Source: Burkholderiales bacterium Ga0077544 (GTDB lineage Bacteria; Pseudomonadota; Gammaproteobacteria; Burkholderiales; Burkholderiaceae_D). Taken from it: a stretch of 64,000 nucleotides of DNA. Below the pieces are notes generated by a model. That model was not told where the DNA came from. It saw nothing but the letters and a program-made list of their open reading frames with translations, and ran no database searches. Positions 37,235 to 55,473 of the stretch are shown one piece after another. Position 1 is the stretch's first letter, and each line of letters opens with the position of its first letter. The stretch spans positions 1 to 64,000 of the forward strand of contig LNEU01000019.1 in the NCBI GenBank assembly GCA_001464355.1, in the 5' to 3' direction. The position numbers and the translations under genes are program-made.

Positions 37235-37816
37235 ATGAGATCAACCGAACATGGCTTTTCCCTGATTGAAGTACTCGTATCGGTGTTTGTCTTGACGGTT
37301 GGTGTCATCGGCGCCACCGGCATGCATCTGAACGCCTTGCGTACGGCGCAGCAGTCCACCTATCAAACGAGTGCCTTGCATCTGGGAGCCGATCTGGCCG
37401 ATTCCATGCGCGCCAATGTCAAGCAAATGCGTTTGGCAGACGATCTCAACCCCTATCTTCAGGTCGACTATCAATCATCTTCTACGTCCGCTCGTTCAAC
37501 GAATGTCTCTTGCTATGGAGTCAGTGGCGATTGCGATACGGAAGAGCTTGCCCGTTTTGATATTGAGCAGCTACTGCAACGCATTGATTCGGATTTTCCT
37601 GGTGGTCGCGTGCGAATTTGTCGCGATGCCATGCCGTGGAATGCCAAAGCGCAGAGATTCGAATGGGACTGTGCAATGGCATCAAGTGGGTTGGCGATTG
37701 TTCCTCTGGTGATCAAAATCGGCTGGCAGGAAAAAATGCTTCATGACAAGACGTCTGAAGACGAGGCAGCGGTTGCGCCTGGCATGGTGTTGACCGTTGC
37801 CGCCTATTCCAGATGA
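37235..37816 (+). CDS. pilV: type IV minor pilin PilV
   Basis: The 193-residue prepilin has the class III signal HGFSLIEVLVSVFVLTVGVIG; PilD would cut after the Gly and methylate the Phe, with Glu5 conserved. The start at 37235 follows GGAAGG; the open frame reaches further upstream but would add a hydrophobic leader that prepilins do not have. PilV is part of the priming tip complex with PilW, PilX, PilE and FimT-like proteins. First gene of the operon; the stop overlaps pilW (ATGA). Confidence 0.9.
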   Translation: MRSTEHGFSLIEVLVSVFVLTVGVIGATGMHLNALRTAQQSTYQTSALHLGADLADSMRANVKQMRLADDLNPYLQVDYQSSSTSARSTNVSCYGVSGDCDTEELARFDIEQLLQRIDSDFPGGRVRICRDAMPWNAKAQRFEWDCAMASSGLAIVPLVIKIGWQEKMLHDKTSEDEAAVAPGMVLTVAAYSR

Positions 37817-38814
37817 GTCATCGCAGCCAGTGTTATCGGACAATTGCCCTGTTCCGTCAGTACGGATGGACGATCACCGAAATGATGATCGCAATTGCAC
37901 TGGGACTCTTCATCTTGTTGACCGCTATGGGACTGCTCTTGTCCAGCAAAACAGGCTACGTCATGCAAGACCAGAATGCTTACATTCAAGAGACCGGACG
38001 CTATGCGACCGAAGTGGTATCGCGTAGCGTGCGTCAGGCTGGTTACGAAAACTGGAATAGTGGAACCATACCCTTGCAAACAGCTGATAACTTCAGCGCG
38101 AACGTGATGGGTATGGATGCCATGACGTTGAAGAAGACGAGCGCAGGATTGGATGGCGCGACATCAACCGATGTCGTCAACGGCAGCGATGTGCTCGCAT
38201 TGCGTTTCTTTGGTGCGAGTGCTGACGGCGAAGAGGGGGCAATCTTAAACTGCGCAGGTCTGTCTGTAGCGGCGCCTGCTTCTCTTCAAATGGCCGAGCA
38301 GGAACGCGGCTGGAGTATTTTCTTTGTTGCCAAGGATAGCACCGGCGAACCTGAATTGCGTTGCAAGTATCAATCGAAGACGAGTTGGAACGCAGATGCA
38401 ATTGCGCGCGGTGTCGAATCTTTTCAAGTCTTGTACGGCGTTGATGTTGATGGCGATGGCCAGCCCGAGCAGTTTCTGAATGCGGACAACATTGATGAAC
38501 TGGACAATCAGTTGCTGCTGGTTGGCGAGAACGCGATTGCGAGAGCAATCGATAAAAATCGCAAGACCGCATGGAAGATGGTTCGCACTATTAAATTTTC
38601 GCTGCTGGTGCGTGGCTCCCAAAATGCACGCGACGATGTACTTGCGACCGAATACAACTTGTTCGGTACCGACTACGGTAATGTGCACGCCGCCAAGGAT
38701 AAAGGCGTGCGCATCCGGGAAGATACTTTGCCGATTGCAAGCAGAAACCGGATCCGGAGAATATTTACACACACCATTCAACTGCGTAATGATGCTGCGG
38801 GTACTGGATTATGA
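37813..38814 (+). CDS. pilW: type IV pilus assembly protein PilW
   Basis: The 333-residue minor pilin-like protein has a prepilin N-terminus (YGWTITEMMIAIALGLFILL: cleavage after Gly, Glu at +5) following a longer leader of 18 residues. The C-terminal part is rich in Asp and Gly, with a segment VDGDGQPEQF that could bind calcium. It overlaps pilV by four bases and pilX by four bases, indicating tight translational coupling. Confidence 0.9.
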   Translation: MSHRSQCYRTIALFRQYGWTITEMMIAIALGLFILLTAMGLLLSSKTGYVMQDQNAYIQETGRYATEVVSRSVRQAGYENWNSGTIPLQTADNFSANVMGMDAMTLKKTSAGLDGATSTDVVNGSDVLALRFFGASADGEEGAILNCAGLSVAAPASLQMAEQERGWSIFFVAKDSTGEPELRCKYQSKTSWNADAIARGVESFQVLYGVDVDGDGQPEQFLNADNIDELDNQLLLVGENAIARAIDKNRKTAWKMVRTIKFSLLVRGSQNARDDVLATEYNLFGTDYGNVHAAKDKGVRIREDTLPIASRNRIRRIFTHTIQLRNDAAGTGL

Positions 38815-39473
38815 GCCGGATTCTGAGCCGACTCATGAGCGGGCATATGAGTGACAAGGTTTCGGCACACAAGGCGCATCAATGCGGAATCACCTTGCTG
38901 GCAACGCTATTGATCCTGTTGGTAGTGTTGATGCTTGGTACGGCTGCTGCGCAGATTGCGGTGCAAGGCGAGAAATCATCCCGTAACGATAGAGATCATA
39001 AAATTGCATTTCAGGCTGCAGAGGCTGCCTTGCTGGATGCAGAAATGGATATCGAGCATTCGCCGGACGAAGACAGATCGCGTAGCGCCCTGTTTTCCAG
39101 CATTAGCGCAATAGGCTTTCCTGCGGCGGCAGGCTCTGCTTGCGGCAGCGGCGAACAGAATACCTATCTCGGGCTTTGTCCTCACTCAGAGGCGGGCGCA
39201 CAACCGATCTGGCAAGTCGTCAATTTTATGGACGATGCGGCGATTACGACCAGCTCCGTGCCTTACGGCAGATTTACCGGACAGTCTTTTTATATCGCCA
39301 ATGGCTCGCTTCCCGTCAAACTTCCGCGCTACATCGTTGAGTTGATGCTTTATAAAATGCCGGCGACTGGTGCCGATGAGCGAACCTACTTTTATCGTAT
39401 TACTGCTGTCGGCTTTGGTGCACGGGAGACGACGCAGGTCGCATTGCAAACGGTTTATCGGAAAACGCATTGA
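38811..39473 (+). CDS. pilX: type IV pilus assembly protein PilX
   Basis: The 220-residue protein has a PilX-type N-terminus: a polar leader, HQCGITLLATLLILLVVLMLG, and the FQAAEAALLDAE segment that is diagnostic for PilX. The prepilin-type Glu at +5 is absent (Leu), as is usual in PilX. It begins inside the pilW stop and ends next to the pilY1 start. Confidence 0.88.
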   Translation: MSRILSRLMSGHMSDKVSAHKAHQCGITLLATLLILLVVLMLGTAAAQIAVQGEKSSRNDRDHKIAFQAAEAALLDAEMDIEHSPDEDRSRSALFSSISAIGFPAAAGSACGSGEQNTYLGLCPHSEAGAQPIWQVVNFMDDAAITTSSVPYGRFTGQSFYIANGSLPVKLPRYIVELMLYKMPATGADERTYFYRITAVGFGARETTQVALQTVYRKTH

Positions 39474-41656
39474 TGGAAGCGATGCGCCGACATGCGCTTG
39501 TCGCCAGTTTATTCACGGGTTTGCTATTGGCGGTAATGCCTCACTGTTGCGCTGCTGCAGTGCCCGAAGTCGCGCTGGATACTGATCCTTTCGTTAGCCT
39601 TCAGTGCCTGAAACTCTCTGTCGAAAGTTTGCGCGTGTCGGGTGCAACAACATCAGCGACGCATATTTCTGCAGAGGGCGTGTCCTTATATCAAGCGGCA
39701 TTTAATCCGGTTATGCGGAGCGGAAGCCTGAAAAAATATCGTCTGGGATTTGATGATATTGAAGGCACGATCAAAATCGCATCCCATGCCGAATGGGATG
39801 CTGCAGAGATATTGACAGGTATCACACCGACCATTGCAAAGCCCGCGCCCGAAGCCCGACATATCTATACATCGGTACTCACGGAAAATCGTTCGCTGCT
39901 TACGATCCCGTTTTTATGGAAGGACTTGTCAATCGCGCAGAAAGCCTTGCTAGATGCTTCTCCTGTCACTGGCTCAAGTGATCAACTTGGAGAAAAGCGA
40001 TTGAATTATCTGCGTGGCGCGCGGCTCTACGAGCTCGGCAACAGCGGCGGTATTTTTCCGAAGCGGGATCGTATTTTGGGCGCCATTGTACATAGCCCGC
40101 CAGTATTTGTCGGGCCACCATCGACAAGTTTGCAAGGCGCTGGCTATCACGCGTTTCATGTGGCGAACAAAGAGCGTCGTGCTGCGGTCTATGTCGGTGC
40201 AGGCGATGGCATGCTGCATGCATTTGACGCTCTGAATGGCGAAGAGATGTTTGCCTATGTGCCGCAAACTTTATTCAAAAATCTGAGTAGTCTGACGCGA
40301 CAAGACGGGGCTTACCGTTCCTTTGTTGATGGCGTGATAGCAGTCGCCGAGGCGCGCGTCGGTAACGAGTGGAAAACGGTACTGGCTTCTGGTATGGGTG
40401 GCGGTGCGCAAGGCGTATTCGCACTGGACGTTACACGACCGGACCAATTCGAAAAGGGTCTGGGCGCATTGTGGGAATTTACCGATAGTGACGATGCCGA
40501 TATCGGGCATGTTGTTGGCGTGCCTCTGATCGCCACTTTCAAGATCAAGGTCATCAAAGGTACACCCAGTTATCGGGATTTTGTGGTCGTTGCAGGCGGC
40601 TTGAACAGTTATCGCGATGACGGTACAGGAAAATTCAATCTTCAGGCACCTGGCGCCTTGTTCTTGCTGGCGCTGGATAAAGCCAAATCGGAACCATGGA
40701 AGATCGGTTCCAATTACTTCAAATTCATCACTCCTATCAGTGACAAGACAATCGCAAACGGCTTGGTTGCACCGACCCTGACACTTGCCAACGATGGTGC
40801 GGTGAACTATATCTATTCCGGCGACCTGCAGGGAAATGTATGGCGCTTTGATTTCAACGGTAGCGCGCCCTGGGCGAATGCGCTTGCCGGTTCGTCGGGA
40901 AAGCCACTGTTTACTGCAATGGATGAGCAGAAGAACCGCCAGGTCATTGCGCAGAAAGTCCAGATCGCATATGGCCCCTATGGCGGCTATCTACTCTTGT
41001 TTGGCACTGGGAAATTCATGGAAGCGGCAGACTTGAATGGTGCTCGATTCAAGACGCAAACATTCTATGGAATTCTGGATGCCCTGGATGGCAAGGCGGT
41101 GACGAGGAATCAGCTCGTCGAACGCAAGTTGATTTCCGCAGGTGCTAGCGACGGTGCTTTGGAGATCAGCGGTAGCGCGCTTAGATACGGCGCACCCAAC
41201 AATAGCGATAGAGGTTGGTACTTCGACTTTCTGGATGCGAACAAGACTGGTGAGCGTAGTATCAGCAGCGCCCGTATCAGTGATGGCAGCCTGTTCTTCA
41301 ATACCCTGATACCCGATGCCGATCCCTGTCAAAAGCATGCGGCTCGTTCTTATGTGTTGAACGTACTGACTGGTTTGCCGGCCTATGCGAATCTCACTGC
41401 ATATCCGGCAAGTGCCAGCATTGTCAACACACCGATAGTGATGGCAATAGTGCCGGACAAGCCTTCGCGCGATGTCACTGGAAAGCGCCGTGTAAAGAAG
41501 AAGCTTGAGGTACTTGATCCCGTCGTCGGTGATCAAACCGGCGAAAAGACGAACGTACCAAAAGTCGCCACTGAGGCGGTCACCGTTTCCGGCCGCCTGA
41601 GCTGGCGCGAGATCGTAAACTGGGTTGAACTACGTAGGTCGGCGACTAAAAAATAA
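39473..41656 (+). CDS. pilY1: PilY1-like pilus tip adhesin/assembly protein, short form
   Basis: The 727-residue exported protein (signal peptide ALVASLFTGLLLAVMPHCCA, cut near AAA) covers the C-terminal beta-propeller of PilY1/PilC. Typical blocks are FNPVMRSGSLKKYRL, RLNYLRGARLYE, AAVYVGAGDGMLHAFDALNG, ASGMGGGAQGVFALDV and GDLQGNVWRFDF. The N-terminal von Willebrand A domain of the usual 1,000 or more residue PilY1 is absent. The ATG at 39473 overlaps the pilX stop (TGATG). PilY1 controls pilus extension and adhesion at the tip; without the vWA part its signalling role is doubtful. Confidence 0.9.
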   Translation: MEAMRRHALVASLFTGLLLAVMPHCCAAAVPEVALDTDPFVSLQCLKLSVESLRVSGATTSATHISAEGVSLYQAAFNPVMRSGSLKKYRLGFDDIEGTIKIASHAEWDAAEILTGITPTIAKPAPEARHIYTSVLTENRSLLTIPFLWKDLSIAQKALLDASPVTGSSDQLGEKRLNYLRGARLYELGNSGGIFPKRDRILGAIVHSPPVFVGPPSTSLQGAGYHAFHVANKERRAAVYVGAGDGMLHAFDALNGEEMFAYVPQTLFKNLSSLTRQDGAYRSFVDGVIAVAEARVGNEWKTVLASGMGGGAQGVFALDVTRPDQFEKGLGALWEFTDSDDADIGHVVGVPLIATFKIKVIKGTPSYRDFVVVAGGLNSYRDDGTGKFNLQAPGALFLLALDKAKSEPWKIGSNYFKFITPISDKTIANGLVAPTLTLANDGAVNYIYSGDLQGNVWRFDFNGSAPWANALAGSSGKPLFTAMDEQKNRQVIAQKVQIAYGPYGGYLLLFGTGKFMEAADLNGARFKTQTFYGILDALDGKAVTRNQLVERKLISAGASDGALEISGSALRYGAPNNSDRGWYFDFLDANKTGERSISSARISDGSLFFNTLIPDADPCQKHAARSYVLNVLTGLPAYANLTAYPASASIVNTPIVMAIVPDKPSRDVTGKRRVKKKLEVLDPVVGDQTGEKTNVPKVATEAVTVSGRLSWREIVNWVELRRSATKK

Positions 41657-41664
41657 GGAAAAGA

Positions 41665-42111
41665 ATGTCCTTCAAATACGTTCGGGGCTTCACGATGATA
41701 GAACTGATGATCGCGCTGACTATCCTCGCAATTCTGGCTGCGATTGCCATTCCGTCCTATCAGGAATCCGTATTGAAGGCGAAGCGTACCGAGGGACGGG
41801 CTGCGCTGATGAAAACCATGCAGCAACAGGAACGCTACTACTCTCTGCATACAACGTATCTGGCATTTTCTTCGGCATCTATCGCTCCTGACGAAAAGAG
41901 ATTCAGCTGGTTTTCCGGCGAAAATGCGCAAAGCAGCTTCTATGAAATCAGTGCGCAGTCTTGTAAAGAAAGATCCTTGCGCGAATGTGTATTGTTGACG
42001 GCGCTACCTGGTACCGACAAGGTTAATACGCAGTATCGTGATTCAAAATGCGGCAAGTTGACCTTGTCCAGCAGTGGCGAGAAAACGGCTGCAGCCGATG
42101 GCTGCTGGTAA
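41665..42111 (+). CDS. pilE: type IV minor pilin PilE
   Basis: The 148-residue prepilin has a textbook N-terminus RGFTMIELMIALTILAILAA (cut after Gly, Glu5) followed by IAIPSYQESVLKAKRTEGRA. Four cysteines occur in the C-terminal half, including the terminal KCGKLTLSSSGEK...CW region, which could form the D-loop disulfide. The match to PilE of minor pilin clusters is strong; the major pilin PilA is not in the window. It starts nine bases after the pilY1 stop. Confidence 0.9.
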   Translation: MSFKYVRGFTMIELMIALTILAILAAIAIPSYQESVLKAKRTEGRAALMKTMQQQERYYSLHTTYLAFSSASIAPDEKRFSWFSGENAQSSFYEISAQSCKERSLRECVLLTALPGTDKVNTQYRDSKCGKLTLSSSGEKTAAADGCW

Positions 42112-42115
42112 GTGT

Positions 42116-42679
42116 ATGCGCATGCTCATGTTGTCCACCAAAGCCAGAAAATCTCCGCGTGCTGCGGGATTCTCGATAATCGAACTGATGGTGATATTGA
42201 TGATTGCCGGTATTCTCATGGCGATTGGTATCCCGAGTTTTCAGTCCATGATTCAAAATCACCGGTTGATCACCGCCACAAATGCCTTGTTCATGGCGGT
42301 GAATCTGACGCGTTCGGAAGCCATACATCGGGGTGTGCGGGTAGATATGGCACCTGCTGGAGACGGGGCCACGTGGAGCAATGGCTGGATCATTTTCATC
42401 GACGAAGACAATGACCAGCGGCCCGACACGAATGAAACGATGATTTATTCGTACGATAAACTGCACCGTGATTTGCGTATCACGCCCAGCTTCACCGATT
42501 CGAAAGTACAATATATCGCATTCAATGGGACTGGCCGGACTCGCACCAATGCGAACAGTCAGACTTCGCAATCAGGAAACTGGTTGCTCGAAGTGGGTAA
42601 GCAATCGCGCAAGGTTGTGGTTAATTTTCTCGGTCGGCCGCGGATATGCGATCCCGACAAGGACGCGTCAAGCTGTTGA
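42116..42679 (+). CDS. fimT: FimT/GspH-type minor pseudopilin
   Basis: The 187-residue prepilin has the signature AAGFSIIELMVILMIAGILM followed by AIGIPSFQSMIQNHRL, and a GspH/FimT domain (NALFMAVNLTRSEAIHRG, WSNGWIIFIDEDND, YIAFNGTGRT, RPRIC). I chose the ATG at 42116, just after the pilE stop; two other in-frame starts are possible further upstream, overlapping pilE. In Pseudomonas fimT and fimU lead the cluster; here this gene is last. Confidence 0.85.
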   Translation: MRMLMLSTKARKSPRAAGFSIIELMVILMIAGILMAIGIPSFQSMIQNHRLITATNALFMAVNLTRSEAIHRGVRVDMAPAGDGATWSNGWIIFIDEDNDQRPDTNETMIYSYDKLHRDLRITPSFTDSKVQYIAFNGTGRTRTNANSQTSQSGNWLLEVGKQSRKVVVNFLGRPRICDPDKDASSC

Positions 42680-45425: not shown

Positions 45426-45439
45426 TTGATATGGATCAA
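45426..45439 (+). promoter_or_regulatory. perfect FNR box before phaB
   Basis: TTGAT-ATGG-ATCAA equals the FNR/ANR consensus. A -10-like TACATT starts 21 bases after it (45461-45466), which puts the box near -41.5, the position of class II FNR activation. The phaB start lies 69 bases downstream of the box. Confidence 0.85.
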
Positions 45440-45508
45440 ATGGGCGGGTCGATTTCGAAATACATTTTGTCTTTTACGCAGAACTGACTTATTTGGGATT
45501 TCGTATCA

Positions 45509-46231
45509 ATGAAAAAAGTTGCGTTGGTCACCGGTGGCACCAGAGGAATAGGTGCTGCAATTGCAGTTGCATTGCATTCCGCCGGTTACGATGTTGCAGT
45601 GACTTATCACAGTAATGTCGATGCCGCGCACGCGTTCAGAGAAAGTACATCTATTCCGATTTTTTGCTGGGATGTTTCTGATTACACGCAATGTCAGGAC
45701 GGCATACGCATCGTGGAAGCAGAAATAGGTTGCATAGATGTACTGGTGAATAACGCAGGCATCACTCGCGACACGGTTTTGCATCATATGGTGCCAGGCC
45801 AGTGGCAGGACGTCATTAATACCAATCTCGGTTCTGTCTTCAATATGTCCCGCAATGTCATTGAAGGTATGCGCTCGCGCAGCTTCGGAAGAATCATCAA
45901 CATCAGTTCTATCAATGGCGAACGCGGACAGATGGGGCAGACGAACTATGCCGCTGCCAAGGCGGGCATTCTTGGATTTACCAAATCTCTCGCGCTTGAA
46001 AGTGCACGCAAGAACATCACCGTGAATGCGATTGCGCCTGGATATTGCGATACGGATATGGTTTCCGCCATTCCGCAAGAAGCAATGGAAAAAATAATGA
46101 CAGGGATTCCCGTTGGGCATTTGGGAACGGGGAGTGATATTGCCCGGTTAGTCGTGTTTCTGGCTGATAACGCAGCTGGCTTCATTACTGGCGCGACCTT
46201 TGACGTTAATGGTGGACAGTTCATGGCGTGA
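45509..46231 (+). CDS. phaB: acetoacetyl-CoA reductase
   Basis: The 240-residue short-chain dehydrogenase has the NADPH-binding TGGTRGIGAAIA, NNAGITRD, and a Ser-Tyr-Lys triad (INISSINGERGQMGQTNYAAAKAG), ending in TFDVNGGQFMA, as in PhaB/PhbB. It reduces acetoacetyl-CoA to (R)-3-hydroxybutyryl-CoA for PHB. First of a plus-strand run phaB-hemerythrin-phasin behind a perfect FNR box. The thiolase PhaA is not in the window. A general 3-oxoacyl reductase is the alternative, but the phasin and synthase neighbours favour PhaB. Confidence 0.9.
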   Translation: MKKVALVTGGTRGIGAAIAVALHSAGYDVAVTYHSNVDAAHAFRESTSIPIFCWDVSDYTQCQDGIRIVEAEIGCIDVLVNNAGITRDTVLHHMVPGQWQDVINTNLGSVFNMSRNVIEGMRSRSFGRIINISSINGERGQMGQTNYAAAKAGILGFTKSLALESARKNITVNAIAPGYCDTDMVSAIPQEAMEKIMTGIPVGHLGTGSDIARLVVFLADNAAGFITGATFDVNGGQFMA

Positions 46232-46286
46232 TGTTGAACACCGCCATTTCAAACCTAATTTATTTAAATAATGTGAGGAGAATGAT

Positions 46287-46748
46287 ATGGAACGAATTTT
46301 TTTGCACCCGGATATATCACTGGGCATTATCGAGATGGATAAGGCGCATAGATTATTGATGCGTGAAATCATGGACATGATGCAGGCTCCGAACTTTGAA
46401 TTTGTCAGTCGCTTGCCGCACTTGGTAGAGTTGTTGGAGATGGATTTTCGGGGCGAGGAAGAGTTGATGGAAAGAATGGATTATCCGGACTTGCGTGCAC
46501 ATCGTGAACAGCATGCAGAATTGCTCGGTACTGTGCATCAAACCGTTGCGAAGGCAATGAATGGCGATTATCTGCTGCCTCGACAGGTGTTGAACATGTT
46601 GCCGGAATGGTTTCTATGGCATCTGGTCAAGATGGATGCTTCACTTGTAAAAGCGTTAAAGGCAGCTGGCGCTCAACCGATCAATCGCGCTGTTTCTAAA
46701 CCGACACATTGGGCTGAAAGAGAACCACAGCATATCGGCTTTGTTTAA
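46287..46748 (+). CDS. bacteriohemerythrin with one altered iron ligand
   Basis: The 153-residue protein has a four-helix hemerythrin domain. Iron-ligand positions seen are His21, Glu57, His72, His76, His112 and Asp117. The seventh ligand, normally a His in the H-F-x-x-E-E motif, is Asp53 (MDFRGEEELM). The YP-x3-H-x3-H pattern (DYPDLRAHREQH) is intact. A good AGGAG precedes the start. Hemerythrins bind oxygen and can also handle NO or iron. Its location between phaB and a phasin, under an FNR box, suggests a low-oxygen role. Whether a di-iron site forms with an Asp ligand is open. Confidence 0.85.
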   Translation: MERIFLHPDISLGIIEMDKAHRLLMREIMDMMQAPNFEFVSRLPHLVELLEMDFRGEEELMERMDYPDLRAHREQHAELLGTVHQTVAKAMNGDYLLPRQVLNMLPEWFLWHLVKMDASLVKALKAAGAQPINRAVSKPTHWAEREPQHIGFV

Positions 46749-46774
46749 TGATGACCTTAACCGAGGAGCACACC

Positions 46775-47338
46775 ATGTTTCCCTTTTCTACAATGAATGC
46801 GCCCGATAATTTGAAGAGTATATTCAATTCAGAACTCGGTTTGTATAACGCTGCTTCTGGCAAGGCATATGATGTGGCATTGAAAATCGCTGACTTGAAT
46901 CTTGAACTCATGAAACAGGCTCGTGCAAATTGGGCCGCACAGTCTGAGCAAATAAAGCAGATGGACGGGAATATCATTCCTCCATTGATGGATACCAATC
47001 AATTCAAGAAAAACGTCGAGATTGCCACGTCCTATGGCCAACATATGACAAAAATCATGCTCGATCTGCAGTCCGATATGTTGAAGGTGGCACAGCAGCA
47101 GGCCACCAAGATATCGAGCACGAATGAAAGCGCATCGGACGCCCAGGAGGCGAGTATGGCGAATCCTAATTTTCCGGGGATTTCCATGCTTCAAAGTATG
47201 GTTGAGCAAGCCAGTAAAGGATATGCCGATTGGAATAGCAGCGTGCTCCATTCCATGGATGCCGCTGGCTCCAATCTTGCACATCAAGCGGCGAGTAAGG
47301 GATCGAATAATCATGCGAAGTCGCGCAACGCAAAGTAG
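46775..47338 (+). CDS. phaP: phasin family PHB granule protein
   Basis: The 187-residue protein has the phasin-type alpha-helical amphipathic pattern (LYNAASGKAYDVALKIADLNLELMKQ) and an acidic, Ser/Asn-rich C-terminal stretch (SSTNESASDAQEASM). I set the start at ATG 46775 because GAGGAG lies eight bases before it; the frame opens 27 bases earlier, overlapping the hemerythrin stop. Phasins coat PHB granules and control their number. It is the last gene of the phaB run. Confidence 0.8.
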   Translation: MFPFSTMNAPDNLKSIFNSELGLYNAASGKAYDVALKIADLNLELMKQARANWAAQSEQIKQMDGNIIPPLMDTNQFKKNVEIATSYGQHMTKIMLDLQSDMLKVAQQQATKISSTNESASDAQEASMANPNFPGISMLQSMVEQASKGYADWNSSVLHSMDAAGSNLAHQAASKGSNNHAKSRNAK

Positions 47339-47496
47339 TCAACGGTATTGCTTTTCTGTATAAGCCGGATGCTTGTTGAACGTGTACTCAGCATGGCGTG
47401 TCGGCACCAGAGGCCATGCGTGCAAATCCCGACAGGGCTGTTGGTCTGGCGGGTAGTGGATATGCAAGCTGTACTTTTTAGGTGAAACAGCGTTAT
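47339..47496. other. short convergent gap between phaP and ackA
   Basis: No intrinsic terminator with a clear T-run is visible between these convergent genes. A stem of moderate quality could form around 47425-47455. Confidence 0.3.
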
Positions 47497-48675
47497 TCAG
47501 TTTGGCAACAGTTTGGTTGCCAAACTGGCTGCCATCCATTCTTCATTGGTCGCTTCGACCGTTACCGCAATGCTGCTGTCGGGCGAAGAGATTAATGAGG
47601 CGTTGGCCACATTTTTCTGGGCATCCAAAGCCAGTCCCAGAAACTGCAAGCCGTTACATACGCGCGAGCGTATCTCAACATTGTTTTCGCCGATGCCGGC
47701 AGTGAACACCAGCATATCCAAACCACCAAGAACTGCAGTGAGTGCGCCAATTTCTCTCACAATACGGCGCACGTATAGTGCGAGTGCATCATGCGCACGT
47801 GGGTTGTTTTTTTCAATCGGCAGCAGTTGGCGTGGGTCGGATGACACACCGGAAATTCCCAGCAGGCCGCAATCATGGTAGAGCATGTGTCCCAGTTGTT
47901 GCGGCGTCAGCTGCTCAGTTTCCATCAGGTATAACAGCACTCCAGGATCCAGTGCGCCGCAGCGCGTACCCATCATCAGACCATCGAGTGCGGAAAATCC
48001 CATGGTCGTTGCCACGCTATGCAGGCCTTGCATGGCGCACAGACTTGCACCGCTGCCAAGGTGAGCGACGATGATTTTTTTGCGAGCTAGATCGCCGTAG
48101 CGTTCTGCCAGAACGATGGACATGTATTCGTATGACAAGCCATGAAAGCCATAACGCTGCAAGCCGCGCTCCCAGGCGGAGTAAGGTAGTGGCAGCATCT
48201 TTTCGACGCGTGGCAAATCACGATGAAACGCGGTATCGAAACAGGCAATTTGCACCAGCTCAGGTTGCCACTGCAACAGGCTTTCAATTGCTTCCAGTGC
48301 GAATGGCTGGTGCAAAGGAGCTAAGGGAATGTAGCTGCGCAAGTCCGACAAGACCTGATGGTCGACGCGCACCGGCGCGGAATATTTGCTGCCTCCGTGT
48401 ACTACACGATGTACGACAGCGACCAGCTGCTTGCTGCCAAGCTGCTTGAGGGTGCGTTGCCGGATGTGTTGCAGCGCCTCATGATAAGGCGTGTCTGTAC
48501 CGATGGGCAGGTTTTCCGGTGACGACTCAGAGGAGGAAAATATCGGTGTGGCGCTGGTAATGCCATCGACTTTGCCGCTCCATGCGGGACTGCGGCTGGA
48601 CAGGGAATTGGGGGCGAAGAGTGCAAACTTGATGCTCGAAGAACCGCAGTTCAGAACCAGAATGCGCTTACTCAT
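47497..48675 (-). CDS. ackA: acetate kinase
   Basis: The 392-residue protein of the ASKHA family interconverts acetyl phosphate plus ADP and acetate plus ATP. Signatures are LVLNCGSSSIKFALF at the start, VVHRVVHGG, AHLGSGASL and VFTAGIGENN. The ATG at 48675 overlaps the stop of the preceding pta gene (ATGA), so the two are coupled. The order pta-ackA with a maoC-pta fusion, next to PHB genes, is a feature of low-oxygen loci in beta- and alphaproteobacteria. Confidence 0.95.
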   Translation of the reverse strand: MSKRILVLNCGSSSIKFALFAPNSLSSRSPAWSGKVDGITSATPIFSSSESSPENLPIGTDTPYHEALQHIRQRTLKQLGSKQLVAVVHRVVHGGSKYSAPVRVDHQVLSDLRSYIPLAPLHQPFALEAIESLLQWQPELVQIACFDTAFHRDLPRVEKMLPLPYSAWERGLQRYGFHGLSYEYMSIVLAERYGDLARKKIIVAHLGSGASLCAMQGLHSVATTMGFSALDGLMMGTRCGALDPGVLLYLMETEQLTPQQLGHMLYHDCGLLGISGVSSDPRQLLPIEKNNPRAHDALALYVRRIVREIGALTAVLGGLDMLVFTAGIGENNVEIRSRVCNGLQFLGLALDAQKNVANASLISSPDSSIAVTVEATNEEWMAASLATKLLPN

Positions 48676-50078
48676 GAGGTACCCTTTTTGGCCTGATGTG
48701 CCAATATCAGCGCAATCGCACAAGAAGCGATCCGTGACTCTCTCGAATCGGCCCGGCTAGTGAGGACAATCGGTACGCGCGCGCCCATGACAATGCCGGC
48801 GCTGGCCGCACCGCCCAGATATTCGAGCTGCTTGGCCAGCATGTTGCCACTTTCCAGATCAGGCACCATCAGGATATCGGCACGTCCGGCGACCTCAGAA
48901 GTAATACCCTTGATGCGTGCTGCAGCGATAGAGATAGCATTGTCGAATGCCAGTGGACCGTCCAGCAATGCCCCTTTGATTTGTCCTCGGTCTGCCATTT
49001 TGCATAGTGCTGCAGCATCAAGTGTTGCCGGCATACGCGGATTGACTGTTTCTACTGCCGCCAGTATGGCCACTCGCGGTTGTTCTACGCCGATTGCCTG
49101 GGCCAGGCTGATGGCATTGCGGATGATATCCGCCTTCTCATCCAGATTAGGCGCGATATTGATTGCTGCATCGGTAATGATAAAGGGGCGTGGATACGCA
49201 GGTGTTTGCATCAGGAAGCAATGGCTGAGGCGACGCTCGGTGCGTAGTTCAGGACAAGCCAGTATGGCTGACATCAGCTCGTCGGTATGCAGGCTGCCCT
49301 TGATGATGATGTCGACTTCACCCTTTGCCGCCAGTGTGACCGCGCGGGCCGCTGCTGCGTGGCTATGGGGAACATCCTCGATACGCAAAGTCGAAATGTC
49401 CAGACTGTTGCTGTCAGCGATGGCTTGTAATTTTGCCCTTGGTGCAACCAGGACGGGAATGATCAGGCCGGCTGCCTGCGCATCCAGCGCTGCCGAGAGA
49501 CTGAGCACATCGCAAGGATGGACGACTGCCGCCGTAATCGTTCCCATAGGCCGGACATATTCCAGCAACCGTAACAGACCATTATCGCTGGCCAGTAATC
49601 GTACTTCTGGCAGGGTGGTGCGCGGCAGTGAAATATGCTCTGTTGGCGCAATCACATCTGCCTCGCCTTCAAGCACGCTAATGCCATCCTGATTGATGCA
49701 GGAGCAGGCCATTGTCAGCCGTTTACTCGTTTCGTGGCGGGCAGTCACGCGCACACTGATTCTTAGGGTGTCACCTATGCGCGCAGGCGCTTTGAAATTC
49801 AATGTCTGCGCCAGATAGATCGTACCCGGTCCCGGCAAACGTGTACCCAGCACCGCTGATATCAGCGCACCGCCCAGCATGCCGTGTGCAATCACGCCTT
49901 GAAAACGAGTGGACGAAGCGAATTCCGGATCCAGATGCTGCGGATTGACGTCACCCGACAGTATCGCAAAAAGTTGAATATCTTCAGCTGTCAGCGTGCG
50001 CTCGGTAAAGGCTTCGTCGCCGATGGCGATTTCGTCGAACACCCGATTTTGAACAATGCGTAGATCGTCCGTACTCAT
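48672..50078 (-). CDS. pta: MaoC-Pta fusion: hydratase-like domain plus phosphate acetyltransferase
   Basis: The 468-residue fusion has an N-terminal MaoC-like hot-dog domain (about residues 10-140; GDVNPQHLDPEFASSTRFQG, IAHGMLGG) and a C-terminal phosphate acetyl/butyryl-transferase (about 155-468; LAAKGEVDIIIKGSLHTDEL, LNFSD-like ITDAAINIAPNLDEKADI, GALLDGPLAFDNA, MVPDLESGNMLAKQL, MGARVPIVLTSRADS). MaoC domains hydrate (R)-enoyl-CoA, so it may feed (R)-3-hydroxyacyl-CoA to PHB synthesis while the other part converts acetyl-CoA to acetyl phosphate. Start set at ATG 50078 after CTGGAGAAC. Coupled to ackA. Confidence 0.93.
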   Translation of the reverse strand: MSTDDLRIVQNRVFDEIAIGDEAFTERTLTAEDIQLFAILSGDVNPQHLDPEFASSTRFQGVIAHGMLGGALISAVLGTRLPGPGTIYLAQTLNFKAPARIGDTLRISVRVTARHETSKRLTMACSCINQDGISVLEGEADVIAPTEHISLPRTTLPEVRLLASDNGLLRLLEYVRPMGTITAAVVHPCDVLSLSAALDAQAAGLIIPVLVAPRAKLQAIADSNSLDISTLRIEDVPHSHAAAARAVTLAAKGEVDIIIKGSLHTDELMSAILACPELRTERRLSHCFLMQTPAYPRPFIITDAAINIAPNLDEKADIIRNAISLAQAIGVEQPRVAILAAVETVNPRMPATLDAAALCKMADRGQIKGALLDGPLAFDNAISIAAARIKGITSEVAGRADILMVPDLESGNMLAKQLEYLGGAASAGIVMGARVPIVLTSRADSRESRIASCAIALILAHQAKKGTS

Positions 50079-50514
50079 GCAGTTCTCCAGATAGAAAGCA
50101 ATACACATGCAGGATACGCACATGCAGATGCGGGTGGCGGGCGCACAAGCCCAGGCAAGCGCTGCAGCGGGGGATGAACTAGCAGGTATGCGTAGCAAGG
50201 CGTTGGTTGTTCAGGTGATGCGGGCGCTGAAAATGCCGGCGCCACATGCTGACCTGTCTGTTCATGCATGCTCTGTGAAGCAGCTTACGGGTAATCCATT
50301 TGTAGCATTTTGATTTCAATCAAATGCTCTGCAAGGCAAGGCAAGCATAGGCTATTTCAAGCCGAAATGCGACCAGAGCCAGGATACAGCTGACTCAGTA
50401 ACAGCCAGGACGAGAGTATCAGTAAAAATAGTGGCATTCAGCCCGAAAGCATTTGAAAAATGCGATGTCGGTAATCAGACTGCCGGCAGAGAAGATGGCG
50501 ATTCTTTTGTTGCA
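50079..50514. other. intergenic region between pta and phaC with an FNR box
   Basis: No gene is convincing in this 436-base stretch. It contains the FNR box at 50310-50323, which points to a leader of about 200 bases before pta. The phaC gene ends at its right side without an obvious intrinsic terminator. Confidence 0.5.
50310..50323 (-). promoter_or_regulatory. perfect FNR box upstream of pta-ackA
   Basis: TTGAT-TTCA-ATCAA equals the FNR/ANR consensus. On the minus strand a -10-like TAAGCT stands 22 bases beyond it, giving a start near 50277. The pta start codon is then about 200 bases downstream, so the transcript would have a long leader. No plus-strand gene follows, so the minus direction is favoured. 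Confidence 0.75.
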
Positions 50515-52311
50515 TCAAGGCTGCATCACATATTTCCCCGGCGCCGAAATTTTATGTGCCGGCATCAGGGGCGGTGGCACACGTTTTCCGGATTTGTTGC
50601 GGAGCCAGGATTCCCATGCGATCCACCACGACCCTTCATGGTGTTCAGCTGTGGCTTGCCATGTGTCGGCATCCATCGCCAATTCTTTGTCGGCATGGGT
50701 CGAGATCTGATAGCTGCGATAAGGATGGCCTGGCGGCGATACCACGCCGGCATTGTGGCCGCCGGAAGTGAGCACGAATGTGACTTCGGTATCTGACATT
50801 CGATGAATCTTGAATACCGAGCGCCATGGCGCAACGTGATCGGTTAGCGTGCCAACCACGAAGATGGGGATACTGATATCCACCAGATGAATCGACTTGC
50901 CATCCGTAACATATCTGCCTTCGGCGAGATCGTTGTGCAGGAATAGGTGACGCAGATATTCCGAATGCATCCGATACGGCATGCGCGTTGCGTCGTCATT
51001 CCAGACCATGAGATCGGATTTCTTCTCGCGCAGGCCGAGCAGATACTGGTTGAGTCTGCGCGACCAGATCAAGTCATTGGAGCGCAAGAGTTGGAACGCA
51101 CCTGCCATTTGTTTGGTATCGAGATACCCCTGTTCCCACATAATCGCTTCTAAAAAACTGACCTGACTTTCATCAATGAAGAGAGATAGTTCTCCAGGCT
51201 CTTCAAAATCCACCTGGGATGCAAACAGGCTGATGCTGGCAATGCGTTGGTCGCCGTCGCGAGCCATGCTGGCCGCAACAATCGACAGCAAGGTGCCACC
51301 CAGGCAATATCCTGCAGCGTTGATTTGTCGAGCATGCGTCAGTTCGGTAATGGCGTCGATCGCGGCCATCACGCCCAGTTTGCGATAATCCTCCATCGAC
51401 AAATCCCTATCCTCGGCCAATGGATTTTTCCACGAAATCATGAATACGGTGTAGCCCTTGCTCACCATATATTTGACCAGCGAATTTTGTGGCGACAGAT
51501 CGAGTATGTAGTACTTCATTATCCAGGCCGGCACGAAAAGCAAAGGTAGTGCGTGCACCGTCTTGCTCGTTGGTGTGTACTGAATCAGCTCGATCAGATG
51601 ATTGTGAAAGACAACTTTGCCAGGTGAGATCGCAATATCTCTGCCGACTTTGAATGTATCGTCAAATTCATTCGTGTCGTTGGTAATGCTCCGTCGCCAA
51701 TCCGCAGTAGCGTTGAGCCAGCCCTGTACAAAGTTGTTGCCCCATGACTGGATGGCAGCTTGCTGTATGACCGGGTTGGTCAGCGGAAAATTTGAAGGTG
51801 CCAGCGTGTCCAGCAACTGGCGTACTGTAAATGTCACGACTTCTTCATGATGCTTGGACACACCCCTGACGCCGGTGGTTGCGCGATGCCACCATTGTTG
51901 TTGCAGCAAGAACCCCTGTGAGATGGCATTAAACGGCCACGTTTGCCATGCCGGATCCCTGAAGCGTTGATCCTGCGATAAAGGCGCGATGCAGAATGGT
52001 TGCGACTGGCCTTCAGTGCTGATGCAATGGCGATTGTAGAGATGCCAGCGCCAGCTGTTTTGCCATGCTCTGTCCAGCAAGACAACGCGCTTGGATGGCG
52101 ACAATGATAGATGGATCTGCCAGTCGGCAAAGGCATTGAACATGGCCGCCGGCGAAATGTTGTGAGTCAGGCGTCCTAGCAATGCGTTACTCATCAAATC
52201 CAAAGGTGCTGATTCGTTTGCGCTTTCAGGATATTGATAAGTCAATGGCGTTAGCCACGCACTCGCCATGCGTTCTAAAGTGAGATTGCTGGATGGATTC
52301 TTCTCAAACAT
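50515..52311 (-). CDS. phaC: class I poly(3-hydroxyalkanoate) synthase
   Basis: The 598-residue synthase polymerises 3-hydroxyacyl-CoA into PHA granules. It has the N-terminal PhaC domain, the lipase-like box GYCLGG with the catalytic cysteine, Asp in VVGTLTDHVAPW, and His in TSGGHNAGVVSPPG. I place the start at ATG 52311 (MFEKNPSSN) instead of 52362, because an FNR box ends only a few bases from the earlier ATG and GAAGG precedes the later one. The gene is divergent from usp and convergent with nothing. It belongs to the same low-oxygen module as phaB and phaP. Confidence 0.93.
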   Translation of the reverse strand: MFEKNPSSNLTLERMASAWLTPLTYQYPESANESAPLDLMSNALLGRLTHNISPAAMFNAFADWQIHLSLSPSKRVVLLDRAWQNSWRWHLYNRHCISTEGQSQPFCIAPLSQDQRFRDPAWQTWPFNAISQGFLLQQQWWHRATTGVRGVSKHHEEVVTFTVRQLLDTLAPSNFPLTNPVIQQAAIQSWGNNFVQGWLNATADWRRSITNDTNEFDDTFKVGRDIAISPGKVVFHNHLIELIQYTPTSKTVHALPLLFVPAWIMKYYILDLSPQNSLVKYMVSKGYTVFMISWKNPLAEDRDLSMEDYRKLGVMAAIDAITELTHARQINAAGYCLGGTLLSIVAASMARDGDQRIASISLFASQVDFEEPGELSLFIDESQVSFLEAIMWEQGYLDTKQMAGAFQLLRSNDLIWSRRLNQYLLGLREKKSDLMVWNDDATRMPYRMHSEYLRHLFLHNDLAEGRYVTDGKSIHLVDISIPIFVVGTLTDHVAPWRSVFKIHRMSDTEVTFVLTSGGHNAGVVSPPGHPYRSYQISTHADKELAMDADTWQATAEHHEGSWWIAWESWLRNKSGKRVPPPLMPAHKISAPGKYVMQP

Positions 52312-52366
52312 TGCAGGCCTTCGGAGGAGCAATGGCGCTAGCCTAGCAACGCATACCGTCACTCAC

Positions 52367-52380
52367 TTGATGCAGATCAA
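52367..52380 (-). promoter_or_regulatory. perfect FNR box before phaC
   Basis: TTGAT-GCAG-ATCAA equals the consensus. On the minus strand a -10-like TAGGCT follows 21 bases after the box, and the chosen phaC ATG stands 56 bases from it. This supports the shorter phaC start. Confidence 0.85.
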
Positions 52381-52722
52381 GGCGGCACGTTTCAATGCGC
52401 TCATTTGTGCCGGATGCTTTGTTGATAAAGGCTTGCGCTGTAGCTGCTGGCAAAGAATACAGTGCACCATACAATCACTATTCAATGCGGCAAGGAATCG
52501 TGCGACGTTTTGAATAGCGCTCTTATATGTGAGCAATAAACTGGGTCGGGCGCAGCCTTCAAATGTTGATATTGACTGTAGATGCGGCCAATGTATGGCA
52601 GCTACGCAGGCCGTTTAAAGAGCGTGCCGTGATCGCGATTGCAGGGAACGGCAGATGGTTCTTCAAGTGTATTTTTATATTGGCGGGCCGACTTGCTGAT
52701 TTAATTTTTGATTAAACGACTA

Positions 52723-52736
52723 TTGATCCATGTCAA
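52723..52736 (+). promoter_or_regulatory. near-perfect FNR box before the usp gene
   Basis: TTGAT-CCAT-GTCAA differs from the consensus in one base. A -10-like TAGGAT begins 21 bases after it, the same geometry as at phaB. The usp ATG lies 61 bases after the box. Confidence 0.8.
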
Positions 52737-52796
52737 ATTGTGCATCCAGCTTGCGCATAGGATGATTTCAACAAATTTTCTTTACAGGGAGACAGC

Positions 52797-53219
52797 ATGC
52801 TCAAGACCATATTAGTGGCGACAGATGGTTCCGATTTGTCGAGGAAGGCGATAACGGCAGCGATTGATTTTGCGGCATCTTATGGCAGCAAAATAGTGGG
52901 TTTGGCGGTTGCTGAAGTATTTCCTGAGTTGTTCCTGGATTACGACTTGCGGGCTATCGAAGAAGACATGCAACAACAGGCTGCATCGAACGCGAATTTT
53001 ATCGCCGACTGTGCAAAAAAAGCGGGCGTTGACTGCGAAGTACATACGGTCACTGGCGTCCGTCCCTATCAAGAAATCATTAAGGCTGCTGAGCAATTCA
53101 ATTGCGACACCATTTTTATGGCGTCCCATGGAAAGAAGGGACTCGATAAAGTATTGCTGGGTAGCGAGACGCAAAAGGTGCTGTCGCACAGCACGATTCC
53201 AGTTCTCGTTTTCAGGTAA
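52797..53219 (+). CDS. universal stress protein UspA-type
   Basis: The 140-residue Rossmann-like protein starts TILVATDGSDLSRKA and ends with the ATP-binding pattern ASHGKKGLDKVLLGSETQKV. The first glycine of the G-x2-G-x9-G(S) motif is Ala. The ribosome binding site is AGGGAGA. It lies behind an FNR box and is followed by a triple-BON gene 63 bases on, probably in one transcript. Stress proteins of this kind are typical of low-oxygen regulons. Confidence 0.9.
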   Translation: MLKTILVATDGSDLSRKAITAAIDFAASYGSKIVGLAVAEVFPELFLDYDLRAIEEDMQQQAASNANFIADCAKKAGVDCEVHTVTGVRPYQEIIKAAEQFNCDTIFMASHGKKGLDKVLLGSETQKVLSHSTIPVLVFR

Positions 53220-53282
53220 GACGCGAGACTTGATCGCAGTTCGATAAATATTTCGATAGACATTCACGTTGGAGAGGTGACT

Positions 53283-53933
53283 ATGAAAACCGATCGCCAG
53301 TTGAAGCAAGATGTTATTGATGAGTTGGAATGGGAATCTGCAATTGACGAGACCGGCATAGGTGTCGAAGTGCATAACGGCATTGTGACTTTAACGGGGA
53401 CGCTTAACAGCTATGCAGAAAAATATGCTGCCGAGAAGGCAGTGCAGCGTGTTGCTGATGTCAAAGGGCTTGCGGTTGAAATCGATATAGCCTTGCCCGG
53501 CTGGGGACAGCGTACTGATGCGGATATCGCCAGAACCGCAGCGCAAGCATTGGAGTGGAATGCGTTGGTGCCTCAAGACTGCATCAAGATAGTCGTCGAG
53601 GATGGATGGATTACGCTTACTGGAAATGTGGATTATCAGTATCAACGCATGGCTGCTGAGAGAGCGCTGCAAACTTTGCTCGGTGTAGTCGGTATCAGCA
53701 ATCAGATTGCCGTGACGCCGTCTGTTACGCAGCGTGATGTTAAAAGTCATATCGAAGCTGCTTTGCAGCGTCGCGCCCATATGGAAACAAAAGGGATTGA
53801 GGTTGTCGTCAATGGTGATCAGATCACGTTGAGCGGCGCTGTATCGTCCTTCGCAGAACGTCGTGCAGCATTAAGCGCTGCGGCACAGACGCGTGGTGTG
53901 GCGAGGGTAGTTGACAAGCTGTTTGTCGCCTGA
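53283..53933 (+). CDS. triple-BON domain protein (OsmY-like)
   Basis: The 216-residue protein is three BON domains in series (about residues 3-70, 72-138 and 146-214). Each has the IEV-x(4)-G-x-[IV]-TL-x-G pattern (GVEVHNGIVTLTGTLNSY, KIVVEDGWITLTGNVDY, IEVVVNGDQITLSGAVSSF). No signal peptide is visible, so it may be cytoplasmic, unlike periplasmic OsmY. The ATG at 53283 follows GGAGAGG; a GTG two codons earlier is an alternative. BON proteins bind phospholipids and are stress-induced. Partner of the usp gene. Confidence 0.88.
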   Translation: MKTDRQLKQDVIDELEWESAIDETGIGVEVHNGIVTLTGTLNSYAEKYAAEKAVQRVADVKGLAVEIDIALPGWGQRTDADIARTAAQALEWNALVPQDCIKIVVEDGWITLTGNVDYQYQRMAAERALQTLLGVVGISNQIAVTPSVTQRDVKSHIEAALQRRAHMETKGIEVVVNGDQITLSGAVSSFAERRAALSAAAQTRGVARVVDKLFVA

Positions 53934-54063
53934 GCCTTGCTCGGGTGCTTGCATTAAGCGCCGCTGATTCAGGATTGTTACTAGGGTAGGTATTCTGCAC
54001 GCACTAGACACAGCATACATATTCGTTGCAGTGACAAGACAAAGATAAATATTAGACGGCAGC

Positions 54064-54122
54064 CGTCCGCTAACAATATTTTAATGGCGGGACTGCAGCG
54101 GGTTCCGCTACCTCAGCGGACG
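54064..54122. repeat. nested inverted repeats between BON gene and fnr
   Basis: CGTCCGCT (54064-54071) pairs with AGCGGACG (54115-54122), and inside it AGCGG-GTT-CCGCT (54097-54109) forms a second hairpin. No T-run is present, but it lies at the meeting point of convergent genes and may help end both transcripts. Confidence 0.4.
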
Positions 54123-54129
54123 CATGTAA

Positions 54130-54978
54130 TTACTTTGCGGTCCAGAGACGCTGCAGATAGGTAAGCTGAGGGGATAAATAATTGTATTCGGTCACTACAG
54201 ATGGCAAATCCAAGCTGGCCTGCGAAGAATCGCTAATATCTATGCCCGCAGCCAGTTTGTTTAGTGCAGATAAATTAAATACCTCGACGTCACGCTGTCG
54301 TACCTCAATGAGTCCGTCTTTGCGCATTTTTGCAATCATGCGACTGACGCTTTCCATCGTCAGGCCAAGATAGTTTCCAATATCTTCCCGAGTCATGCGT
54401 AGCTGAAAGCGGGTTGGTGAATATCCTCGCAGTGCATAACGCCTCGACAGATTGATGAGGAAGGCCGCAAAACGCTGTTCCGCGTACATATTCCCGAGAA
54501 TCATGATTACATTCTGTTCGCCCATGATTTCCTCGCTCATTACACGATGAAAATGACGCATCAAGATCGGCATCTCTGTGAATAATGTTTCGAGTTGTGT
54601 GTAAGGGATCATGCATACTTCGCTGTCGTCCAGTGCGACTGCGTCACATTGATGGAGGGCGCTACTAATCGCATCCATACCCAAGAGATCTCCACTCATC
54701 TGGAAGCCATTGATTTGCCGGTCGCCGGCCAGATTTTCCTGATAGGTTTTGAAATGGCCGACACGCACAGCGTAGAGCGATGTGAACTGATCACCTATGC
54801 GATAGAGATAACTATCCCTCGCAATTTTTTTGCGTACGATAATCTGGTCCAGGAGTCGCGTTTCATGTTCATTGAGTCCGGTCGGCAGGCATATCTGGCG
54901 CATGCTGCATCCTAAACAGCTACGAGATGCAGATTTTTCAGCACTAGAAGACGAATGCGGTTGCAAGGACTTTGCCAT
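54130..54978 (-). CDS. fnr: FNR/ANR family oxygen-sensing transcription regulator
   Basis: The 282-residue regulator has a cyclic-nucleotide-type effector domain and a Crp-type helix-turn-helix. The cluster cysteines are Cys21, Cys24, Cys30 (CLGCSMRQIC) and Cys122 (EVCMIPY), the same spacing as E. coli FNR. The recognition helix TREDIGNYLGLTMESVSRMIAK keeps the E-x2-SR that reads TTGAT. The start is ATG 54978 because GGAGG precedes it; the frame is open four codons earlier. It is the likely binder of the four FNR boxes at 45-53 kb. Confidence 0.95.
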   Translation of the reverse strand: MAKSLQPHSSSSAEKSASRSCLGCSMRQICLPTGLNEHETRLLDQIIVRKKIARDSYLYRIGDQFTSLYAVRVGHFKTYQENLAGDRQINGFQMSGDLLGMDAISSALHQCDAVALDDSEVCMIPYTQLETLFTEMPILMRHFHRVMSEEIMGEQNVIMILGNMYAEQRFAAFLINLSRRYALRGYSPTRFQLRMTREDIGNYLGLTMESVSRMIAKMRKDGLIEVRQRDVEVFNLSALNKLAAGIDISDSSQASLDLPSVVTEYNYLSPQLTYLQRLWTAK

Positions 54979-55473
54979 GACGCCCTCCATATGAATGAAA
55001 CCTGTACAAATCTCAAATTCATGTCAACGTGTGTGTAACTTAATGTAACTTAGCCAAGTTCAGTATGTCCCCACTACTCATTATTTTACTGTTCTAGATC
55101 AAATAAACAGTAATAAAAAAACAACAAAAATACAACGAAATATTGCTGCAGGATAATGTTCGGGGTGACGATAGTCGTGAATCCGCTGGGTAATTAGCAA
55201 TGCTGGAAATGCGTTCCCGCCGAGCTCGTTGATTGATAAAAAATCACCGCGCACGGAGTCGCTGCTTGAGGGGTGTGGGCTCGGGAAAATTGATCTTCGG
55301 AAGTGCAGGGCAAACAGTGTTGCACGTTGCAACTGAGTATTCGCATTAAATTCGCCACTCATTCGCACATCAAAGTAAGCACCGACTGTCATTCTTGGAC
55401 TCAAGCGATGATAGCTGTCATTCCTTTATCGTCGACATGCAGACATTCGTTATCACTGAGGCAAATTTTTCTA
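54979..55473. other. upstream region of fnr, no gene seen
   Basis: Only one small element stands out: TGTAACTTA occurs twice in tandem with ten-base period (55034-55042 and 55044-55052). A half FNR site (GATCAA) lies at about 55097. No open frame with a ribosome binding site was found. Confidence 0.4.

Follow-up and report, generated by a model that had tools for sequence, protein, structure and literature searches.

An Oxalobacteraceae clade of hemerythrin-like proteins with aspartate at a canonical iron-ligand position, often encoded near low-oxygen response genes

RESULTS

A hemerythrin-like protein with Asp in place of a canonical iron-ligand His

We identified a supported clade of Oxalobacteraceae hemerythrin-like proteins in which Asp commonly stands where canonical bacteriohemerythrins have one of their iron-ligand histidines, and whose genes, judging from their sequence surroundings, often lie near low-oxygen response genes. 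The founding example is a 153-amino-acid protein encoded in a stretch of 64,000 nucleotides from Burkholderiales bacterium Ga0077544 (contig LNEU01000019.1), referred to here in its entirety as the window. Its gene (positions 46287 to 46748, + strand) was recognized as an open reading frame (ORF) with an AGGAG sequence preceding the ATG, by NCBIfam and from a fold model. The ligand pattern read from the sequence is H21, D53, E57, H72, H76, H112, and D117; six of the seven canonical bacteriohemerythrin ligands are present and Asp53 stands for His, exactly as the initial annotation had read them. On the + strand, the codon for His21, a predicted Fe2 ligand, occupies 46347 to 46349, that for Asp53 (GAT) occupies 46443 to 46445, and that for Glu57, a predicted bridging ligand, occupies 46455 to 46457. 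The codons from His72 to His76 (HxxxH; 46500 to 46514) specify the predicted Fe1 ligands, and those from His112 to Asp117 (HxxxxD; 46620 to 46637) specify a further predicted Fe1 ligand and a bridge. From its place in the HxxxE motif and from known hemerythrin structures, we take position 53 to be one of the two Fe2 histidines. Comparison of the gene with its counterparts in two congeners gave dN values of 0.14 to 0.15 and dS values of 0.64 to 0.75 (dN/dS of about 0.2), and on these estimates the gene is under purifying selection.

The window protein passed the NCBIfam hemerythrin domain model TIGR02481 (66.3 bits; cutoff, 51.75), for which five further clade members scored 59.5 to 72 bits. 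It missed the cutoff of the bacteriohemerythrin model NF033749 (67 versus 84 bits; 53.7 to 63.4 bits for the same number of further clade members) and the gathering score of the Pfam HHE family PF01814 (16.1 versus 25.3 bits). At an E value of ≤0.01, PF01814 matched 53 of 56 clade members and did not match the window protein. Searched with PF01814, the genome of the window protein yielded only a different HHE protein (L001; G000:C33:75523-75882; 58.9 bits), which has a Lys/Ala-rich N terminus and looks unlike a bacteriohemerythrin. The best match by sequence among solved structures was the Methylococcus bacteriohemerythrin 4xpw (E value, 3.4e-7), the HFKSEE of which faces DFRGEE in the window protein. 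RIC has the same H-HxxxE-H-HxxxE motif as BTSL2. This RIC/FBXL5/BTS motif, as printed for BTSL2 (PMC12022348), is absent from the window protein, which has HxxxH-HxxxxD instead.

An AF2 model built with an alignment of 56 clade sequences had a confident four-helix core (pLDDT, 86.4), with helices at residues 15 to 33, 36 to 63, 69 to 91, and 96 to 126 forming an up-down bundle; the model was poorer (pLDDT, 73.5) when no alignment was supplied. Foldseek placed hemerythrins at the top with a probability of 1.00, the best E value being 7.7e-3 and none reaching 0.001, and the other fold-search matches seen were other helical bundles. With VIA-align, the model superimposed on DcrH-Hr (2awc) with a Z score of 16.6 and 2.2 Å over 125 residues and on McHr (4xpx) with Z scores of 15.9 to 16.0; the first unrelated bundle scored 11.8. 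The window protein is thus predicted to be a single-domain hemerythrin-fold protein. McHr and DcrH-Hr, with the pattern H-HxxxE-HxxxH-HxxxxD, share its fold, six of its ligands, and its domain length. It differs from them at the Fe2 histidine of HxxxE, where it has Asp, and in E51, E58, and H84, which are conserved in the clade, and the identity in the structural alignments is 20 to 22%.

Asp53 is conserved among relatives within one family

A contig scan with the single window protein found no relative; relatives were found by an alignment-based scan. When 148 relatives were searched at the protein level, 64 genomes had matches; within the genus, these were the protein's own genome and 2 of the 12 others. 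We read residue 53 in 118 rows, comprising all the listed Oxalobacteraceae places, 17 other places, and further places from the search. In the 73 rows that we assign by inference to the Oxalobacteraceae, the residue was D in 24, H in 23, A in 12, V, N, and G in 3 each, and R, T, I, Q, and L in one each. In the other families reached by the same search it was His in 45 of 45 rows, and class- and phylum-level searches again gave only His (58 of 58 rows, from 56 loci). The total outside the Oxalobacteraceae came to 98 of 98 distinct sequences with His, a count of best-scoring loci only, so that rarer origins of Asp elsewhere are possible.

The initial annotation had proposed a homologue search for the D-x3-E variant. 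In an alignment of the window protein with 80 named relatives (the best 80 of 98), D53 was present in 79 of the 81 sequences and Ala in 2, a count biased by the D in one of the two search patterns, a bias from which the 118-row set is free apart from its query and profile. H21, E57, H72, H76, H112, and D117 were each present in all 81. Among the D rows, codon 53 was GAT in 51 and GAC in 28. The earlier worry that Asp53 might be a sequencing error, or else a one-off mutation, carries practically no weight: the residue is shared by both congeners and by dozens of named species (79 of 81 sequences), so it is due neither to error nor to chance. Its conservation across a clade bears out the initial view that the change matters.

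The other six ligands were intact in 65 of 65 His rows, 21 of 24 D rows, and 15 of 26 other non-His rows (115 distinct rows, from the set found without a D pattern). Asp therefore appears to have been kept, and decay is more often seen with the other replacements, on counts whose rows are dependent through relatedness. The three exceptions among the D rows (L147, L160, and L167), whose other ligands are altered or unaligned, count against the functional explanation favored below. None of the 115 rows had Glu at position 53. Of the family rows in which residue 53 is something other than His or Asp, the 11 that have further ligand changes mostly kept H84 (11 rows), E51 (10 rows), and E58 (10 rows). 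Four clade members, L158, L180, L181, and L182, have lost several iron ligands and kept all three of these residues; they are possibly metal-free hemerythrin folds with another role. We considered H84 as a substitute iron ligand and rejected it, as it lies 8 residues past H76 in the same predicted helix. His84 is present in 20 of 24 D rows and 5 of 65 His rows; it also persists in 22 of the 26 rows with another residue at 53, including some whose sites are broken, and it looks like a clade marker.

A tree of 137 rows, calculated with column 53 excluded and with 24 of the 80 named loci, placed all 45 D rows in one 72-row group (SH-aLRT, 95; branch length, 0.64). That group also took in 2 His rows and 25 of the 27 rows with another non-His residue, which left 63 His rows and two non-His rows outside. 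The tree was limited by its small number of columns, a rapid search, and many unresolved forks. The short D rows L160 and L167, in which other ligands are changed or unaligned, were omitted from the tree and kept in the ligand count. D and non-D rows are intermixed within the clade, which also holds Ala, Gly, Val, Asn, and Arg types as well as the two His types. By this comparison position 53 tolerates change, which counts against the favored explanation. The His-type rows L149 and L146 are nested in the clade with uncertain placement, and their His may be a reversion or a retention. The simplest reading of the tree is a single loss of His in an ancestor within the Oxalobacteraceae, with changes afterwards.

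The window gene lies in a cluster with FNR boxes

Fifty-five bases separate the hemerythrin-like gene from the end of phaB (45509 to 46231, + strand), which encodes acetoacetyl-CoA reductase (TIGR01829; 330.9 versus 302.1 bits). The phasin-like gene that follows (46775 to 47338, + strand) was named from its position and a subthreshold match to TIGR01841 (15.4 versus 30.2 bits; 21.9 bits for its Herbaspirillum orthologue); a start at 46748, as in the ORF list, would overlap the stop codon, and the start at 46775, behind GAGGAG, is more likely. Both neighbors had been named in the initial annotation. About 76 bases before phaB lies an FNR box, TTGATATGGATCAA (45426 to 45439, + strand), in the presumed promoter of a phaB-hemerythrin-phasin operon.

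Downstream, the − strand carries ackA (acetate/propionate kinase; 47497 to 48723; NCBIfam), a phaJ(MaoC)-pta fusion (48672 to 50198; Pfam and NCBIfam) with an FNR box upstream at 50310 to 50323, and the polyhydroxyalkanoate synthase gene phaC (50515 to 52362; Pfam and NCBIfam) with a box at 52367 to 52380. On the + strand are genes for a universal stress protein (USP; 52797 to 53219; Pfam), with an FNR-like box at 52723 to 52736, and for a protein with three BON stretches (53277 to 53933; Pfam). An FNR regulator gene follows on the − strand (54130 to 54990; NF008365, 250 versus 228 bits); the product has a CxxCx5C motif near its N terminus, and cysteines of this type bind the FNR cluster. The region from 45426 to 54990 is thus a compact cluster of phaB, hemerythrin, phasin-like, ackA, phaJ-pta, phaC, USP, BON, and FNR genes. 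Elsewhere in the window, at 37813 to 42679, upstream of ribD/ribE, we noted by eye prepilin-like and PilY1-like ORFs of the type IV pilus assembly type.

Within the 64-kb window the pattern TTGAYNNNNRTCAA (TTGAYN4RTCAA) has four occurrences, at 45426, 50310, 52367, and 52723, all of them inside this cluster and lying before phaB, phaJ-pta, phaC, and usp, respectively. With one mismatch allowed, TTGATN4ATCAA gave 9 matches in the window against 3.6 expected, a number as high being reached in 1 of 100 shuffles. The phaB-hemerythrin-phasin operon is preceded by an FNR box and the genome encodes an FNR, so that the operon is presumed to belong to an FNR regulon.

FNR boxes and stress genes near the relatives

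Across 78 of the 80 named loci (the Ala loci L082 and L084 were omitted), an FNR box lay within 400 bp upstream of 18 of the 78 D genes, compared with a mean of 1.7 and a maximum of 6 in 1,000 draws of random windows from the same loci. Boxes also preceded 29 of 653 other ORFs of at least 250 amino acids, many of them spurious, 3 of 19 same-family His-type genes, 3 of 11 clade members without Asp53, and none of 25 His-type genes of other families (25 of 27; L129 and L134, with cut flanks, were omitted). The boxes are therefore, on these counts, not specific to D-type genes, and 60 of the 78 D genes are without one within 400 bp; both points count against the favored explanation.

The 80 named loci comprised 78 D and 2 A types. 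Within 7 kb of them there were USP genes at 34, FNR/CRP genes at 13, polyhydroxybutyrate (PHB) genes at 13, sensor kinase genes at 15, response regulator genes at 15, and a BON gene at 1. At least one of the USP, FNR, and PHB classes was near 40 of the 80 clade loci versus 3 of 19 same-family His-type controls (19 of 23 family His rows, leaving out the clade-nested L146 and L149 and also L169 and L178), in a comparison in which neighbors past the ends of short contigs are invisible and loci of one genus are not independent. The Janthinobacterium loci, only 1 of 20 of which had such a neighbor, count against the favored explanation. In L038, the representative scanned, the kinase is of the PAS-HisKA_3 type and the regulator of the LuxR type. 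FixLJ likewise has a PAS-HisKA_3 kinase and a LuxR-type regulator. In six Duganella loci (L048, L052, L053, L061, L063, and L068), the D-type gene is followed by a tandem pair of CRP/FNR-like matches and by a USP match.

Co-occurrence with phaB, a second check suggested at the outset, held for a few loci only: phaB is directly upstream in 6 of the 80 named loci (L033, L034, L042, L054, L055, and L064), with a remnant in one more, that of Herminiimonas fonticola. Of these six intact pairs, three have an FNR box within 400 bp of phaB; the three Massilia pairs have none at that distance, which counts against the favored explanation. In H. fonticola (L032:8662-9000), only two fragments of phaB are left, alongside intact hemerythrin and phasin-like genes, with an FNR box still present upstream. 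Since so few loci are linked to phaB, and given this remnant, the hemerythrin is independent of phaB, and PHB is one facet of a low-oxygen setting. We rejected a strict PHB link as too narrow for the wider USP/FNR/PHB setting. The single-protein peculiarity of a PHB operon first described is thus present in the window, and it belongs to a trait of an Oxalobacteraceae clade found in a broader low-oxygen setting of USP, FNR/CRP, kinase/regulator, and PHB genes.

DISCUSSION

Ligand variants and related systems

Hemerythrin ligand variants are already known as a class. A 2016 survey found that the iron-coordinating residues vary in 106 single-domain hemerythrin sequences and left open whether this reflects loss of function, a new function, or other iron binding (PMC4919030), and two cases have been worked out. 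The hemerythrin domain of a P1B-5 ATPase has, like the D-type protein, a carboxylate for a canonical His and is reported to autoxidize very rapidly; it differs in that the third motif is the one affected, with HxE replacing HxxxH, and the domain is part of an ATPase (PMC9388753). The mycobacterial protein Mka HLP combines a hemerythrin-like bundle and an altered ligand set with new chemistry, and it differs from the D-type protein in a Tyr ligand and a fifth helix (PMC8913304). The gene content of the window cluster recalls the lxa locus of Burkholderia cenocepacia, where USP, phaB, and phosphate acetyl/butyryl transferase genes (M0294, M0296, and M0298) lie close by (PMC6127331); the word hemerythrin is absent from the main text of that paper. 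A Bradyrhizobium PhaR paper lists an HHE gene, the H. arsenitoxidans genome paper counts one hemerythrin among oxidative-stress genes, and an Oxalobacteraceae paper has a hemerythrin-like gene among those listed. We found no paper on the D-type clade among open-license full texts; the clade itself is supported and has a sequence-level tie to the low-oxygen regulon.

Geometry and a possible mechanism

We judged the site from ideal bond lengths and angles. The distance from metal to Cα is 6.1 to 6.9 Å for ligation through His NE2; Asp would reach at most 5.8 Å (90th percentile, 5.4 Å), and Glu could reach 7.0 Å. The carboxylate at position 53 is there, as first proposed, and its simple ligation is doubtful: because Asp is too short for a like-for-like replacement, direct ligation would need a shift of the iron or the helix, and Asp may otherwise act through a water. 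The absence of Glu at this position fits a water-linked role for Asp, in our view. In canonical sites two histidines hold Fe2, to which O2 binds, and two bacterial hemerythrin sensors are switched by redox state (PMC9388753).

From the observed clade, conservation, predicted fold, FNR boxes, and neighbors we infer an explanation that takes in the binding of iron, what Asp53 does, the chemistry, the expression, and the physiology, and to which we give about an even chance of being right. The D-type protein would be an FNR-controlled, low-oxygen diiron protein in which the altered Fe2 favors turnover of O2 or peroxide, or a redox-sensing role, rather than reversible carriage. The exchange of the Fe2 histidine in HxxxE for Asp would date to the base of the D-type clade or close to it. 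In the window organism, an FNR-dependent promoter would drive synthesis of the protein, along with that of PhaB and the phasin-like protein, when oxygen is low, as part of a low-oxygen regulon of FNR, USP, and PHB genes. Fe1 would be held as usual by His72, His76, and His112, with Glu57 and Asp117 as bridges; Fe2 would retain His21, and Asp53 would work via a bound water or draw Fe2 towards helix B. The resulting Fe2 may be labile and more readily oxidized, as chemical reasoning suggests that a weaker, more anionic ligation would lower its potential and speed its oxidation by O2. Residual O2 or peroxide would then be reduced, or its presence reported by a met/deoxy switch, rather than O2 being reversibly carried. 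In Herbaspirillum, PHB synthesis and Fnr activity are mutually dependent and oxidants lower Fnr activity (PMC5862806), which provides a reason to coexpress a sink for O2 or reactive oxygen species (ROS) with phaB. The likely benefit would be that FNR, labile to O2 and ROS, is shielded and that PHB synthesis continues as an electron sink during a shift to low oxygen. Against the explanation, Bhr-HD-GYP has complete canonical ligands, forms no oxygen adduct, and autoxidizes fast (PMC9388753), so fast autoxidation does not require a ligand swap.

Alternative explanations

The alternative that we would entertain most readily, though with distinctly less belief, is that the D-type protein is an oxygen carrier or buffer like Mhr of Pseudomonas aeruginosa, binding O2 reversibly at low oxygen and feeding high-affinity oxidases, with Asp53 tuning affinity only. 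Mhr is Anr regulated, binds O2 reversibly, and matters for colony-biofilm fitness (PMC12403760). The D-type genes have the same kind of FNR/Anr-type box, and the two proteins are alike in this control (for the D-type protein, from the box alone) and in their low-oxygen setting. A mere tuning of affinity sits poorly with an Asp that displaces one of the two histidines on the O2-binding iron and is too short to ligate in its place. Among the gene classes scored, moreover, the neighbors are PHB and USP genes, and an mhr mutant has no microoxic growth defect (PMC12403760).

Rather improbable is NO, peroxide, or iron-repair chemistry, as in an NO peroxidase or a RIC-like protein. An altered ligand set does accompany NO peroxidase activity in the Mycobacterium kansasii HLP (PMC8913304), but the D-type motif H-DxxxE-HxxxH-HxxxxD differs both from that set, with its Tyr, and from H-HxxxE-H-HxxxE, and the window neighbors scanned (two scans, of 8 and 6 proteins) included none identified as NO or nitrite genes. 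We think it quite improbable that the site is decaying, its metal binding lost or dispensable and the bundle serving as an adaptor or binding partner of stress proteins. Such decay would suit the 11 of the 26 non-His, non-Asp rows in which further ligands have changed and H84, E51, and E58 mostly persist; it does not suit the D-type proteins, with their other six ligands intact in most family rows and throughout the named set, nor the alternation of codon 53 between GAT and GAC.

Significance

We suggest, tentatively and with less confidence than we place in the low-oxygen diiron explanation itself, that the D-type proteins may form a distinct functional class of hemerythrin. A conserved, water-linked Asp, next to an Fe2 left with one of its two histidines, would turn an O2-carrier site into an O2/peroxide-reducing site or a redox switch, recruited by one family into its FNR regulon to protect FNR and the disposal of electrons through PHB. 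The D-type clade bears on what natural ligand variants of hemerythrin do. The clade is a natural experiment, in which one defined replacement has been kept in many genera in a low-oxygen setting, and the coexistence of Asp, Ala/Gly, and a few His forms within it is useful for comparing the effects of Fe2 ligation.
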